64,000 nucleotides of DNA from Acidobacteriota bacterium (GTDB lineage: Bacteria > Acidobacteriota > UBA890 > WLXD01), in assembly GCA_012103255.1 (NCBI GenBank), contig WLXD01000001.1, forward strand, positions 744,001-808,000. Reading direction: 5' to 3'. A program made the position numbers and the translations under genes. This document shows, piece by piece, positions 37,316-52,345 of this stretch. Positions within the stretch are counted from its first letter, which is position 1; the number at the start of each line of letters is the position of its first letter. The notes beneath the pieces were generated by a model that saw nothing but the letters and a program-made list of their open reading frames with translations, was not told the origin of the DNA and searched no databases.

Positions 37316-37413
37316 TGGCGGAGGGGGTGGGATTCGAACCCACGTGCCGGGTTTGTACCCCGACAACTCGATTTCGAGTCGAGCGCGTTACGGCCTGGCT
37401 TCGCTACCCCTCC
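37316..37413 (-). tRNA. tRNA-Ser (anticodon CGA)
   Basis: The acceptor strands GGAGGGG (37413-37407) and CCCCTCC (37326-37320) pair perfectly. The anticodon arm is CTCGA-CTCGAAA-TCGAG, giving anticodon CGA for UCG codons. A long variable arm and the T-arm GTGGG-TTCGAAT-CCCAC follow. The discriminator is G, and the 3' CCA is encoded (37318-37316). The long variable arm confirms a class II tRNA. Confidence 0.95.
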
Positions 37414-47462: not shown

Positions 47463-48390
47463 GCCACTCCGCCGCCGCTTCGTGCAGCGGTAGGGGAGAG
47501 TTCTCGAGAGCGCCGAGGTCGATCTGGCGTGCCACGTCGTTGACGCGGGCCAGTTCGTCACGACGATCGCGAAGCGCCTCGAGGACGGCCACGACAATGG
47601 TGTCGGGCGTGTCAGTTCGGGCGAACACCCAGTTGAGGACCGCGGCCGTCTCGAGCGCGGATTCCATACCGGGGTAGGCGCCGGCCGGGATCTCGCTCGA
47701 CACGTAGTAGGGCCATTCGCGTAGAAGCTCGCTCATCGGGCCGGGTGCGATTCCGAGGAGACGCACACCTCCCGTTGTGGTTGCCTCGAGCACCGCCGCG
47801 GCCGGATAGCCTACCGACAGGATCGCGAAATCGATCGCGCCGTCGCGCAGCGCGGTGGCGGACTCCGAGAACGACAGATACTGCGGCTGGATGTCGTCGA
47901 CGGACATGCCATGCGCCGCTAGAATCTCGCGCGCCATCTGCTCGGTGCCGCTGCCAGGCGCCCCGATCGAAACCCGAAGACCGGCGGCTTCGTTCAACGA
48001 GGTTGCGTCGCTGTTGGGTGCCGCGAGGATGTGGCCGACGTTCGGATAGAGCGGCGCGACGATGCGGATATCCGCGTAGCGCTCGGCGTCGTCGCCCTGA
48101 AGTCCGTGCACGAGTGTCGTGCCGATAGCCATGGCCACGTCCATCTCGCCGGCCGCGACGCGGTTGAGGTTCTCCACCGAGCCGCCGGTGACCTCGGCCG
48201 TTACCTGAAGGTCCGGCACGGCCTCGCCGATCATGCGTGCGAGGGCCCCGCCGAGGGGGTAGTAGATCCCGCCGGTTCCCGCCGTCCCGAGACTGGCGAA
48301 CTGGCGTGTCGGAGCTTCACACCCGGCCACGCAAACGGCCGCTAGGCCGATGACTAGGGCGAGGATCGGGGCGCGCGAATTCTTGACCAT
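47428..48390 (-). CDS. TAXI-family TRAP transporter solute-binding lipoprotein
   Basis: The 320-residue protein has a lipoprotein signal ending at CVAGC (Cys24). The TAXI signature lies just after it: SLGTAGTGGIYYPLGGALARMIGE, then TGGSVENLNRVAAGEMDVAMAIGTTL. It should bind a small carboxylate-type solute in the periplasm and hand it to the fused TRAP permease encoded upstream. The permease stop overlaps this gene's start by 37 bp, as in other TAXI-TRAP operons. Because the permease is frameshifted, transport may be lost in this sequence. Confidence 0.92.
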   Translation of the reverse strand: MVKNSRAPILALVIGLAAVCVAGCEAPTRQFASLGTAGTGGIYYPLGGALARMIGEAVPDLQVTAEVTGGSVENLNRVAAGEMDVAMAIGTTLVHGLQGDDAERYADIRIVAPLYPNVGHILAAPNSDATSLNEAAGLRVSIGAPGSGTEQMAREILAAHGMSVDDIQPQYLSFSESATALRDGAIDFAILSVGYPAAAVLEATTTGGVRLLGIAPGPMSELLREWPYYVSSEIPAGAYPGMESALETAAVLNWVFARTDTPDTIVVAVLEALRDRRDELARVNDVARQIDLGALENSPLPLHEAAAEWLRTSGPATPGT

Positions 48391-49286
48391 GTGAGTGACA
48401 CGAGGATGAGGGCTCCGCCCGCAAGGCGGGCAACAGCGAGAGGAGAAAGGAGTGCTGCGGCGGCCACGACGAGCACGACGCGTTCGGGCAGAGAGACCTG
48501 TCGATTGTGGTGGCCGATGGTGGCGGCAGCAAGTGCGAGGACGCCGAGGAGCGCCGCTACGAGAGTGGTCGCGATTTGCGCGGGCGGGGCTTGGAGCAAC
48601 AGGCCCGGGCTATAGATGAACGCGAACGGCACCGCGAACCCGGTTGCCGCAAAGCTCACCGCCGCAACGGCGGTGCGAAACGCAGACGCTTCCGCGATCC
48701 CGGCAGCGGCGTACGCAGCCAGGGAAACCGGCGGCGTGACGTTGGAAATACAGCCGAAGTAGAAGATGAACAGATGGGCTGCGAGCGGCGCCGCGCCGAG
48801 TTCGACGAGTGCTGGCGCGCCGAGCGCAGCCAGCACCACGTAGGCGGCCGTAGTCGGTAGTCCCATGCCAAGTACAACACCCGCGAGAGCCGTCCAGATC
48901 AGGCCGATGAAGAGTTCGCCTCCCGACAACGTCACGATCAGGCTGGAGAGTCGCAGCCCTATGCCGGTGAGTGTGGCGATGCCCACTACGATGCCGGCAG
49001 CAGCGCAGGCCGCCGCGACCTGCACGGCTCCACCCGCTCCGGCAACCAGAGTGCGCCGCAGCGCACTCGGCGACATCCGAGTGGCGGGCACGGCCATGGC
49101 GGTGACGAAAGCCAGCATCACGCCCCAGAACGCCGCCCGCATGGGTGATCGGCCCAGTGCCAGCAACGCCACGATACCGACCAGCGGTAGAAGCAGGTGG
49201 AGTCGTGAACGGACGTCTCCCGTGGCGGTATCCGCGCTGTCGGTAACCTCATCTCGCAGAGCCGAGAAGTGAATCGCCGCCAGCAT
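48354..49286 (-). CDS. TRAP fused permease, C-terminal part (frameshifted gene)
   Basis: This 310-residue open frame is the second half of a DctM-like TAXI-TRAP fused permease, with about seven membrane helices. Motifs include GLGLRLSS-like GIGLRLSSLIVTLSGGELFIGLI, LGMGLPTTAAYVVLA and CISNVTPPVSLAAYAAAGIA. The same frame stays open upstream to the frameshift at about 49336-49341, encoding IQVAAAAAIPALLYYAAM. The ATG at 49286 is therefore an internal Met, not a natural start. It pairs with the N-terminal frame at 49249-50169. Confidence 0.85.
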   Translation of the reverse strand: MLAAIHFSALRDEVTDSADTATGDVRSRLHLLLPLVGIVALLALGRSPMRAAFWGVMLAFVTAMAVPATRMSPSALRRTLVAGAGGAVQVAAACAAAGIVVGIATLTGIGLRLSSLIVTLSGGELFIGLIWTALAGVVLGMGLPTTAAYVVLAALGAPALVELGAAPLAAHLFIFYFGCISNVTPPVSLAAYAAAGIAEASAFRTAVAAVSFAATGFAVPFAFIYSPGLLLQAPPAQIATTLVAALLGVLALAAATIGHHNRQVSLPERVVLVVAAAALLSPLAVARLAGGALILVSLTWSRIRAPRSSP

Positions 49287-50169
49287 TGCTGCGTAGTAGA
49301 GCAGTGCTGGAATCGCCGCGGCCGCTGCGACCTGGATAGTAGGGGATGTTCGTCCAGGTGGCCAGAATGAAGGCGCCGGCGCCCATTACAGGCGGCACGA
49401 TCTGGCCGCCCGTACTTGCCGCCGCCTCGATGGCGCCTGCGAGGTGGGGCGCGAAGCCGGCCCGCTTCATCATGGGAATCGTGAGCGATCCGGTGGTGAC
49501 GACGTTCGCCACCGCACTGCCGGACAGCGAGCCCATCAGCGCGCTGGATACCGCCGCAGTCTTTGCGGGAGCGCCGGGGGTGTCGCCGGCGATGCGCCTG
49601 GCGAGACCGATCAGAAGTTGCCCGCCGCCCGCGTTGTCGAGCAGCGTGCCGAAGAGTACGAACAGGAATACAAAGTCGGCCGAAACGCCGAGCGGTACTC
49701 CCCAGATGCCTTCAGTGCCGAGGTAGAGATGCTCGATGATCCGCTCGATGCCATAACCGCGGTGGGCCAGCAGTCCGGGGAGCCACGGCCCCGCCAGGCC
49801 GTAGATGAGGGCCGCACTCGCGACGATGACCATCGCCACCCCGACGGTTCGCCTCGTCAGTTCCAGAACCAGCACGATCGTGAGCGCGCCGGCCACAAGA
49901 TCGAGCGGCTGTGCCGTGCCAGCCCGAGCCACGAGTTGTTCGTTCTGGCTCACGAGATAGAGGCACGTCGCGAAGAGCCCCAGAGCCGGTAGCGCGGCAC
50001 CCAGACGGATGCGATCTTCACTGTCGCTAGCGCGCAGGAAACCGAGCGCACCCAGCAGCGCGAGATGCAGAGGCCGGAGCACCAGAGCGGTCAGCGGCGC
50101 GACCCCCGCTGAGTAAAGGTGAAGCAGGGCTGCCCCACCGGCCAGAATGGCGATCAATGTGCTGCGCAT
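49249..50169 (-). CDS. TRAP fused permease, N-terminal part (frameshifted gene)
   Basis: This frame encodes the first half of the TAXI-TRAP fused permease: four DctQ-like helices, then the DctM start (GIWGVPLGVSADFVFLFVLFGTLLDNAGGG, APAKTAAVSSALMGSLSGSAVANVVTTGSLTIPMMKR, GGQIVPPVMGAGAFILATWTNIPYY). After NIPYY the frame turns to unrelated sequence and stops at 49249. One extra base near 49336-49341 explains the break. Removing it joins NIPY to IQVAAAAAIPALLYY with family spacing. ATG 50169 was preferred over TTG 50181. Confidence 0.82.
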   Translation of the reverse strand: MRSTLIAILAGGAALLHLYSAGVAPLTALVLRPLHLALLGALGFLRASDSEDRIRLGAALPALGLFATCLYLVSQNEQLVARAGTAQPLDLVAGALTIVLVLELTRRTVGVAMVIVASAALIYGLAGPWLPGLLAHRGYGIERIIEHLYLGTEGIWGVPLGVSADFVFLFVLFGTLLDNAGGGQLLIGLARRIAGDTPGAPAKTAAVSSALMGSLSGSAVANVVTTGSLTIPMMKRAGFAPHLAGAIEAAASTGGQIVPPVMGAGAFILATWTNIPYYPGRSGRGDSSTALLRSNAGGDSLLGSAR

Positions 50170-50220
50170 GAGGGCATACAATACCCGTCCGCAGCTCTAG
50201 CCCAGATCCCAGGAGTACCT

Positions 50221-50808
50221 ATGCGCCGGCAGCCATCTATTCGTTATGTGTTCGTCATTGCCCTTGTGGCGCTGACGACAGCTGCCTGTGGACCGACCGA
50301 GCTGGCGACCCCGTCGGCGGCGCAGGCGGAACGACTCGTAGGCGAGACGTTCCCCGAAGCCACGATCCGAGTTCGCGAAGTGACGCGTACGGAGCAGACG
50401 CTGAGGATTCCCGCCGAGTTCAACGAGGCTGACGTCATCTTCATGATGGAGGCGGGCGAGGAGCAGTGGCTGATCACCGGAGTCGAGCAGGGTGGCAACA
50501 CCTACACGGTGGATCAGCTGGGCGAGATCGCGGCCAGCATGGAAGTCATGCGGACGCTGTCGGATGCGCTGGAACGCTACAAGACCGACACCGGCGCGTA
50601 CCCGGTGCTCGACGACCTGGTGGGTTTGCGCGAGCTCGTGCCGGACTACTACCCGGCGCAGGGCGAGATGGAGGACGCGTGGGGTAGCGCGTTCCGATAT
50701 CGCGTGCAGGGCGACGACTACTACACGGTCACGTCCACCGGGCCTGATGGCACCGCCGGCAGCCGGGACGACATCATCCTCATCACCGGTAGCTTCGTCG
50801 AAGGCTAG
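50221..50808 (+). CDS. lipoprotein with pseudopilin (GspG-like) C-terminal domain
   Basis: The 195-residue protein has a lipoprotein signal (LTTAAC, Cys23). A short alpha/beta region spans about 45-100. The C-terminal 90 residues resemble the globular domain of major pseudopilins: MRTLSDALERYKTDTGAYPVLDDLVGL, DAWGSAFRYRV, STGPDGTAGSRDDI. The pilin N-terminal helix and prepilin cleavage site are absent, so it cannot assemble like GspG and must be lipid anchored instead. AGGAG precedes the ATG. Its role is unknown. Confidence 0.78.
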   Translation: MRRQPSIRYVFVIALVALTTAACGPTELATPSAAQAERLVGETFPEATIRVREVTRTEQTLRIPAEFNEADVIFMMEAGEEQWLITGVEQGGNTYTVDQLGEIAASMEVMRTLSDALERYKTDTGAYPVLDDLVGLRELVPDYYPAQGEMEDAWGSAFRYRVQGDDYYTVTSTGPDGTAGSRDDIILITGSFVEG

Positions 50809-50812
50809 TCGC

Positions 50813-51268
50813 CTAGCTCCGTCGAGCTCGGAAGAAGTCGCGGAGTAGCTCGCCGCATTCCGGATGCGTGGCATGGCGCACTTCGCGCAGGTGCGGCGCG
50901 TGTTCGGTTCCTGGAAGCGGAATCGCCGATCCGCATGCTCCCAAGCGCGGATCGCCCGCGCCGTAGACGAGCTGCCGCACGCGCGCATTCACGATCGCGC
51001 CCAGGCACATGGGACACGGCTCCAGAGTGACGATCATCGTGGCGTTCTCGATCCGCCAATCGCCGATGGCCTGGCCCGCGTCGCGCAAGGCGAGAATCTC
51101 CGCGTGCGCCGACGGGTCGTCGTCAGACTCCGTGCGATTGCCTGCGCGACCCACGATCTTGCCGTCGAGCACGACAACGGCCCCGACGGGAACTTCTCCG
51201 CGCGTGGCAGCCGCCTGCGCTTCTTCGACAGCGGCTTCCATCCAGGCATCGAGCTGATCGCGTTCCAT
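50813..51268 (-). CDS. tadA: tRNA-specific adenosine-34 deaminase
   Basis: The 151-residue protein is a zinc deaminase. The catalytic HAE is at His55-Glu57 and PCPMC at 84-88 gives the zinc Cys residues 85 and 88. GEVPVGAVVV near the N-terminus and DPRLGACGS later match TadA. It converts A34 to inosine in tRNA-Arg(ACG), which lets one tRNA read CGU, CGC and CGA. The gene for exactly this tRNA lies 70 bp upstream on the same strand. ATG 51268 was chosen because the longer frame runs through the tRNA gene. Confidence 0.93.
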   Translation of the reverse strand: MERDQLDAWMEAAVEEAQAAATRGEVPVGAVVVLDGKIVGRAGNRTESDDDPSAHAEILALRDAGQAIGDWRIENATMIVTLEPCPMCLGAIVNARVRQLVYGAGDPRLGACGSAIPLPGTEHAPHLREVRHATHPECGELLRDFFRARRS

Positions 51269-51338
51269 GACTCGTGGTCCGGAATGCAGGTGCAGAGCCT
51301 GCGGCGCGCGTGGGTGCCCGGAATGCGGGCATGGAAAA

Positions 51339-51412
51339 TGCGCCGAGGAGGACTCGAACCCCCAACCTCCTGGTCCGTAGCCAGACGCTCTATCCAATTG
51401 AGCTATCGGCGC
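51339..51412 (-). tRNA. tRNA-Arg (anticodon ACG)
   Basis: Acceptor strands GCGCCGA (51412-51406) and TCGGCGC (51346-51340) pair, with discriminator A at 51339. The D-arm is GCTC-AATTGGAT-AGAGC. The anticodon arm is TCTGG-CTACGGA-CCAGG, anticodon ACG. The T-arm is GGGGG-TTCGAGT-CCTCC. The 3' CCA is not encoded (TTT follows). A34 is the substrate base of TadA, whose gene lies directly downstream. Confidence 0.96.
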
Positions 51413-51553
51413 ATGCTGCCGTCCATGCCGACAATCACGGAGACCGCGATGGGCAGGTTCGGCTTGCGAGTCGCACAGGATAGCACCGGCCCGAAGCGCC
51501 GGAAAGCACCTTTGGGTCTCGTGTCGCGGTCGGTGCCTGCTACGCTAGGGCCC

Positions 51554-52345
51554 ATGAACCGTGGGAAGACGGGGCGATACTGGGGGGTAGTCGTCTTGCT
51601 AATACTCGTTGGTCAGCTATCCGTGGCGGCGCCATCCGTGCGCGCGCAACAGGACGACCTCTCAGATCGCCTGCAGCGCGCGGTCCAGCGTCTCGATCAG
51701 GGCGACACGATGGGGGCGATGCTCGATCTTGAGGGCATCCTGGCGCGGGACGAGGACTACTGGCCTGCCTATTTCTACCTGGGTCGCGTTCAGGCACAAC
51801 TCGGCGACGATCTGGGCGCCAAGGGGTCCTTCATGCGCGCAGCGACGCTCAATCCGGGCAACGCGGAGTTGCACTATCTCGTCGCCACAGCGGCTTGGGC
51901 GCTGGCAGATTTCGATGCGGCCTGGAATCAGGCGATCGCGGCCCGGCAGGCAGGCTACCCGCAAGGCCCGATCGACGAACTCTTGAGCGGCCTCGACCAA
52001 TACTCTGATCCGCCCCCCGACATGGAGAGCCGGCTCGCGGCACCACGAGTGGTGGTGATCCCCGGCGACGACGGCGCCGACGCAGACCTGCTGCACAGGG
52101 TTCGCAGTTCCGTATTCGGCTCGCGCCAACTCGGGCTCGTGCTCGATCCGGCAATCGCCGACTACCGGATCGAAATGACGGGGGAGTCGGGCAATTGGAA
52201 CGCCCGGATCATGGCCGGAGAAGACGACGAGGTGCTGTCCGAGCGCGGTGCGGGTGATCGGGCACCCACCGGGTCGATTCCAGGGATGGAAATGGACAGT
52301 CTCGTGCGCGACCTCGAAGCCGTGGCCGCGCGCAGCACGGACTAG
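51554..52345 (+). CDS. secreted TPR-repeat protein
   Basis: The 263-residue protein has a signal peptide (YWGVVVLLILVGQLSVAAPSVRAQ). About four TPR-like helical pairs span residues 35-150: RAVQRLDQGDTMGAMLDLEGIL, YFYLGRVQAQLGDDLGAKGSFMRA, LHYLVATAAWALADFDAAWNQA. The C-terminal half, with RVVVIPGDDGADADLLHRVRSSV, is a compact domain I do not recognise. Its TAG shares bases with the stop of the histidine kinase on the other strand. It may act as a periplasmic adaptor; no partner is evident. Confidence 0.8.
   Translation: MNRGKTGRYWGVVVLLILVGQLSVAAPSVRAQQDDLSDRLQRAVQRLDQGDTMGAMLDLEGILARDEDYWPAYFYLGRVQAQLGDDLGAKGSFMRAATLNPGNAELHYLVATAAWALADFDAAWNQAIAARQAGYPQGPIDELLSGLDQYSDPPPDMESRLAAPRVVVIPGDDGADADLLHRVRSSVFGSRQLGLVLDPAIADYRIEMTGESGNWNARIMAGEDDEVLSERGAGDRAPTGSIPGMEMDSLVRDLEAVAARSTD

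Follow-up and report, generated by a model that had tools for sequence, protein, structure and literature searches.

A tRNA-Arg(ACG)-tadA pair in an Acidobacteriota genome as a probable fragment of an old tRNA gene cluster

Why does the gene for the tRNA adenosine-34 deaminase TadA lie directly behind the gene for the very tRNA that the enzyme is predicted to edit? The question is raised by a locus of an Acidobacteriota bacterium that we examined within a window of 64,000 nucleotides (positions 744,001 to 808,000 of contig WLXD01000001.1, here C1, assembly GCA_012103255.1). A preliminary description placed tRNA-Arg(ACG) 70 nt ahead of tadA with the same orientation and raised the possibility that the enzyme and its substrate are cotranscribed and co-dosed. 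ARAGORN, Rfam, and the open reading frame (ORF) confirm the arrangement:

51338..51413, minus strand: tRNA-Arg(ACG), read by ARAGORN, single copy, without an encoded CCA
51269..51337, minus strand: gap between tRNA and tadA, without a terminator or promoter match, containing a hairpin that lacks a T-run
50813..51268, minus strand: tadA, ORF of 151 aa for the tRNA adenosine-34 deaminase, with its ATG at 51268

The Rfam match to the same tRNA (RF00005, 65.2 bits) covers 51339-51412 of the minus strand, and tRNA and tadA are 70 nt apart by the Rfam 3′ end and 69 nt by that of ARAGORN. As set out below, the pair is probably a fragment of an old cluster shared with other phyla, and the most likely reason for its retention is that tadA lacks a separate promoter.

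The arrangement is conserved within the order to which the genome belongs. We sampled nine genomes, one of which (G008) has a tadA match cut at the contig start; in all eight with readable context, tRNA-Arg(ACG) immediately precedes tadA and shares its strand. Counted from the 3′ end of the tRNA, the first in-frame ATG follows after 17, 29, 29, 29, 47, 47, 69, and 157 nt in these eight members. The comparison of relatives suggested in the preliminary description thus finds the pair in all eight and not in this genome alone. By chance, a particular tRNA would fall at most 300 nt upstream of a particular gene, and on the strand of that gene, with a probability of about 300/(2 x 4.8 Mb) = 3e-5, so the recurrence of the linkage is not a matter of chance.

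To follow the pair beyond the order, we compared 82 further tadA loci in the window’s phylum and 120 from four other phyla (30 each), counting as linked a tRNA-Arg(ACG) no more than 300 nt upstream of tadA or a tRNA-Ser(CGA) or tRNA-Ser(GGA) no more than 300 nt downstream. In the window’s phylum, Arg(ACG) lies upstream at 14/82 loci, and one of the two serine tRNAs lies downstream at 44/82. Sixty phylum regions were picked mainly at one or two per family among the TadA matches listed, and eight picks (G050, G038, G062, G073, G118, G144, G160, and G100) were already known from coordinates to be linked, which leaves 14/82 possibly somewhat high. The four other phyla were chosen because one member of each was linked (L046, L015, L069, and L050); they were sampled by the best 30 TadA matches each, of 79, 58, 59, and 61 genomes, with three of the four seed genomes included. 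Here Arg(ACG) stands upstream at 55/120 loci: 6/30 in the phylum of L046 (titled Planctomycetota), 7/30 in that of L015 (titled Deltaproteobacteria), 29/30 in that of L069 (titled KSB1), and 13/30 in that of L050 (titled Peptococcaceae), where Arg(CCU) lies between in 12 of the 13. Among public contigs ranked by similarity, Arg(ACG) occurs within 500 nt upstream at 6/80 loci and Ser(CGA) downstream at 18/80. An antisense tRNA within 300 nt was seen only once among all 210 loci. The linkage, which had been called unusual, therefore appears to recur in at least five phyla, nearly always inside a larger tRNA cluster; that the four other phyla are distinct from that of the window and from one another is read from record titles and from samples with no entry in common. 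In the phylum of L069 (L282-L311), tadA almost always lies in such a tRNA cluster, and in a larger one, with Glu(CUC) before Arg(ACG) at 24/30 loci and Ala(CGC) after the serine tRNAs at 17/30.

The company that the pair keeps bears on its meaning. Among the Arg-linked loci found beyond the order, 65 of 69 also carry Ser(CGA) or Ser(GGA) just after tadA. Serine tRNAs are linked at 128/202 loci versus 69/202 for the substrate Arg(ACG); serine occurs without arginine at 63 loci, and arginine without serine at four. These serine tRNAs, with their CGA and GGA anticodons, lack an A34, which rules them out as substrates of TadA. The non-substrates are linked more often, so the closest tie of tadA is not to its substrate tRNA. 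The order of the window departs from this picture, with 8/8 members linked to Arg(ACG) and 0/8 to a serine tRNA.

The pair is best read as one part of a cluster, presumably of common ancestry, with the order Ser(UGA)-Ser(GCU)-Arg(ACG)-(Arg(CCU))-tadA-Ser(CGA)-Ser(GGA)-SRP RNA-dnaX-ybaB (SRP, signal recognition particle). This cluster is nearly whole in L045 and partial in L015, L046, L050, and L069. In these five loci from other phyla the same tRNA lies upstream of tadA on the same strand (with Arg(CCU) between in L045 and L050), and SRP RNA is next in line, as it is in L101, L102, L178, and L195 of the window’s own phylum; dnaX is next in line in L015, L045, and L046. We infer that serS was also part of the ancestral cluster; no serS precedes Ser(UGA) in the fetched stretches of L015 and L045. 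The window’s order differs from these clusters in that serine tRNAs, SRP RNA, and dnaX no longer stand close to tadA. The Bacillus subtilis gene order yaaJ(tadA)-scr-dnaX-yaaK-recR (PMC10454642) sets tadA beside SRP RNA and dnaX, as in the right-hand part of the same cluster. The passage giving that order names no tRNA gene beside yaaJ, whereas the window has the Arg-tadA junction without SRP RNA or dnaX nearby. Searches of open-licence papers listed no title or abstract opening with an account of tRNA-Arg(ACG) beside tadA or of an Arg-tadA-Ser-Ser cluster, a result that does not establish its absence in print.

The missing pieces are present elsewhere on contig C1 of the same genome:

C1 907-909 kb, minus strand: serS-Ser(UGA)-Ser(GCU)
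C1 795 kb, minus strand: Arg(ACG)-tadA
C1 781 kb (37316..37413 of the window), minus strand: tRNA-Ser(CGA), 13.4 kb downstream of tadA
C1 630 kb, minus strand: tRNA-Ser(GGA)
C1 587.4 kb, minus strand: SRP RNA
C1 586.3-587.3 kb, minus strand: dnaX

These pieces keep the order and strand of the cluster over 323 kb (586-909 kb, of which the window is 744-808 kb). The position of SRP RNA and dnaX, on the minus strand of C1 below 630 kb, was predicted beforehand, and both were then found there. No serine tRNA, SRP RNA, or dnaX adjoins the window’s tadA; they are found 13 to 208 kb from it, in the sequence of the cluster and with the orientation of tadA. The window locus is a remnant of the cluster and not an intact member with the order tadA-Ser tRNA-SRP RNA-dnaX. 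The junctions still closed in this genome are serS-Ser(UGA)-Ser(GCU), Arg(ACG)-tadA, and SRP RNA-dnaX. The tRNA-Ser(CGA) at 37316..37413 is a probable displaced piece. The same tRNA lies on the same side and strand at 14 kb from tRNA-Arg in G002 and at 8.5 kb in G003; none was found beside tRNA-Arg in G001 up to the contig end or in the fetched stretches of the f2 genomes.

What might have held arginine tRNA and tadA together is suggested by the signals and genes around them:

51554..52345, plus strand: divergent neighbour, ORF without a Pfam match
51477..51505, minus strand: promoter-like site before the tRNA, a match to the E. coli consensus below the scan threshold
50221..50808, plus strand: convergent neighbour, ORF of a type II secretion system protein G-like gene (PF08334 by Pfam)

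Because both flanking genes lie on the plus strand, tRNA-Arg(ACG) and tadA form an isolated unit, which the tRNA begins, next to the divergent gene, and tadA ends, next to the convergent one. The promoter-like site combines a -35-like TTTCCG (51500-51505), a 17-nt spacer, and an extended -10-like TGCTATCCT (hexamer at 51477-51482), and an extended -10-like motif TGnTATnCT precedes the tRNA in 8/8 order members. In all eight, the best sigma70-like score is higher before the tRNA (6.6 to 9.5) than in the gap (-2.9 to 3.8), as computed with E. coli weights that are perhaps not the host’s consensus and over an upstream stretch of 150 nt that exceeds most gaps. A threshold scan for promoters found no site over threshold anywhere in the region.

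Within the gap of the window, the scans detected neither an intrinsic terminator nor a sigma70-like site above threshold. The absence of an obvious terminator, already remarked in the preliminary description, extends to the order members with readable context, of which 0/8 have a terminator-like site in the gap. A 6-bp hairpin at 51315-51331, seen by eye and also in the computed fold, has no T-run 3′ of it, and tRNA plus gap folds with no stability beyond that of shuffled sequences (z -0.71). Gaps are short in many cases, at 17-29 nt in 4/8 order members, and in other phyla several loci have gaps of 0 to 4 nt. The TTTT that directly follows the tRNA was considered as a special acceptor-stem terminator and rejected, as a short T-run behind the gene is a common feature of the 43 tRNA genes read by ARAGORN in this genome; several of the 43 also have a hairpin with T-run, as judged by eye. 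In a different family of the phylum (f25), L102 and L105 have a strong hairpin followed by a T-rich stretch between tRNA-Arg(ACG) and tadA, possibly a terminator or attenuator ahead of tadA.

Cotranscription of the pair from a promoter before the tRNA is likely on these sequence features. The same layout, in which a tRNA gene and a protein gene share a strand and are separated by a short stretch free of terminators, marks mixed operons of the tufB type, exemplified by thrU-tyrU-glyT-thrT-tufB of E. coli, in which tRNA genes are likewise joined to a translation-related protein gene. The two cases differ in that cotranscription is established for the tufB operon while tRNA-Arg-tadA is known from sequence, and in that the protein of the present pair modifies the adjacent tRNA. 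In the scenario that we favour, the cluster would have been pried apart in this lineage, the pieces keeping their order and strand. One promoter before the tRNA would yield one transcript, and excision of the tRNA would leave a tadA mRNA with a short leader. With a single promoter before the tRNA and none for tadA, the pair would most likely have stayed together.

Several points weigh against this scenario, which we nevertheless consider probable. Terminator-like hairpins occur in the gap at 2/14 loci of the phylum and at 1/6 and 5/29 loci of two other phyla, so that read-through is not universal, and in L186 the gap outscores the upstream stretch for a promoter; the limits of the promoter weights given above count here as well. 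Arg linkage is patchy, at 12/57 families sampled (order included, within 300 nt, families counted by hand). On the supporting side, uniform placement gives a probability of 1e-4 for the observed order on one contig, and of 7e-6 to 3e-5 with strand; yet the model ignores replication-linked gene order, and apart from the SRP RNA and dnaX prediction, the colinear layout was noticed post hoc. The gap hairpins, in L102, L105, L223, and five loci of the KSB1 phylum, also speak for another view, in which the two genes are adjacent by descent alone, a promoter within the gap or the tRNA gene serves tadA separately, and transcription of the tRNA ends before tadA. The organism’s promoters may indeed differ from the E. 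coli consensus. We consider a separate tadA promoter rather unlikely, given that 8/8 order members lack a terminator-like site in the gap and show weak promoter scores there, and that the 17-nt gap of G003 is too short for any promoter that does not extend into the tRNA gene. Still less credible is a repeated, independent gain of the Arg-tadA adjacency instead of inheritance from one cluster, which we regard as very improbable. The patchy distribution would fit it, as would parsimony on a TadA tree, which requires 28 changes of the Arg-linked state (37 for serine); this is a FastTree reconstruction from a short protein, without a shuffled-label comparison, and nothing firm is drawn from it. 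Repeated loss would also give patchiness, and the order Arg-tadA-Ser-Ser on one strand recurs across phyla and is retained by the scattered pieces of this very genome.

Selection for the linkage through enzyme-substrate coupling, where one transcript keeps TadA and its only substrate, tRNA-Arg(ACG), in matched supply, is the explanation implied by co-dosing. In its favour, the order has kept the arginine junction alone beside tadA while the rest has spread over 323 kb, and serS is likewise still beside two of its substrate tRNAs in the same genome. Against it stand the counts outside the order, in which non-substrate serine tRNAs outnumber the substrate beside tadA, and the pairing of SRP RNA with dnaX, which stay joined without any enzyme-substrate relation. 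We therefore judge coupling unlikely: co-dosing is not needed to account for the linkage and is disfavoured in general. The linkage is found elsewhere too, and taken alone it is no evidence for co-dosing. Substrate-specific selection is not supported as a general explanation, though it may apply to this order, which kept just the arginine tRNA, and hence only the enzyme-substrate junction, around tadA. A more elaborate version, to which we attach little probability, starts from the closed junctions that join an enzyme to its substrate (tadA with Arg(ACG), serS with two serine tRNAs); the amount of TadA would depend on how its substrate tRNA is transcribed and processed, possibly with feedback through binding of TadA to the anticodon arm of the precursor.

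The assignment of the gene itself draws on structure and family comparisons. Solved TadAs are among its best matches in the Protein Data Bank (PDB), including 7cph (1.3e-37), 2b3j (3.2e-32), and 1z3a (4.9e-32); TadA chains score 89-132 bits against 66.6 bits for the first guanine deaminase, and guanine, cytosine, and RibD deaminases are all more distant from the protein than the solved TadAs are. PF14437 (129.5 bits) and PF00383 (98 bits) each exceed their gathering score. The translation contains HAE and PCPMC, which agree with HAE and PCxxC, the zinc motifs of this deaminase fold family. The TadA equivalog NF008113 of NCBIfam is the best of three families matched, but its 141.8 bits fall below the curated cut-off of 150, and we accordingly assign the gene to TadA on homology, outside NF008113. 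Within the extent examined, TadA is single copy in the genome, where the sole other match is a 36%-identical deaminase (1.6e-8), and its substrate tRNA-Arg(ACG) is likewise present once among the 43 tRNA genes in the stretches fetched (from 45 Rfam matches, one weak match was not fetched and one yielded no ARAGORN gene). The window gene is thus identified as TadA and is predicted to deaminate A34 of tRNA-Arg(ACG). In G010, a 98% complete genome, a tRNA-Arg(ACG) pattern match at C78:27003-27031 is accompanied by no TadA among the matches listed, through either a contig break or real loss.

Two features stand apart from the pair. A TRAP transporter fused permease at 48354-50181 (minus strand) is apparently split into overlapping ORFs, 48354-49286 and 49249-50181, the upstream of which covers just positions 4-282 of the 615-position TIGR02123 (308.1 bits); a frameshift, a sequencing error, and two genuine genes are all conceivable. 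On contig C8 of the same genome, at about 137.6 kb (L127), ARAGORN reads a selenocysteine tRNA (anticodon TCA) beside tRNA-Ala(GGC).

Taken together, an apparently odd pairing becomes evidence for an old, cross-phylum cluster of tRNA genes, an editing enzyme, SRP RNA, and a replication gene, and the genome offers a case of such a cluster seemingly stretched over 323 kb with its order and strand intact. As relatives vary, keeping arginine, serine, both, or neither beside tadA, the dependence of tadA on a tRNA promoter becomes testable, and the same variation allows one to ask whether the linkage of enzyme and substrate was ever selected.
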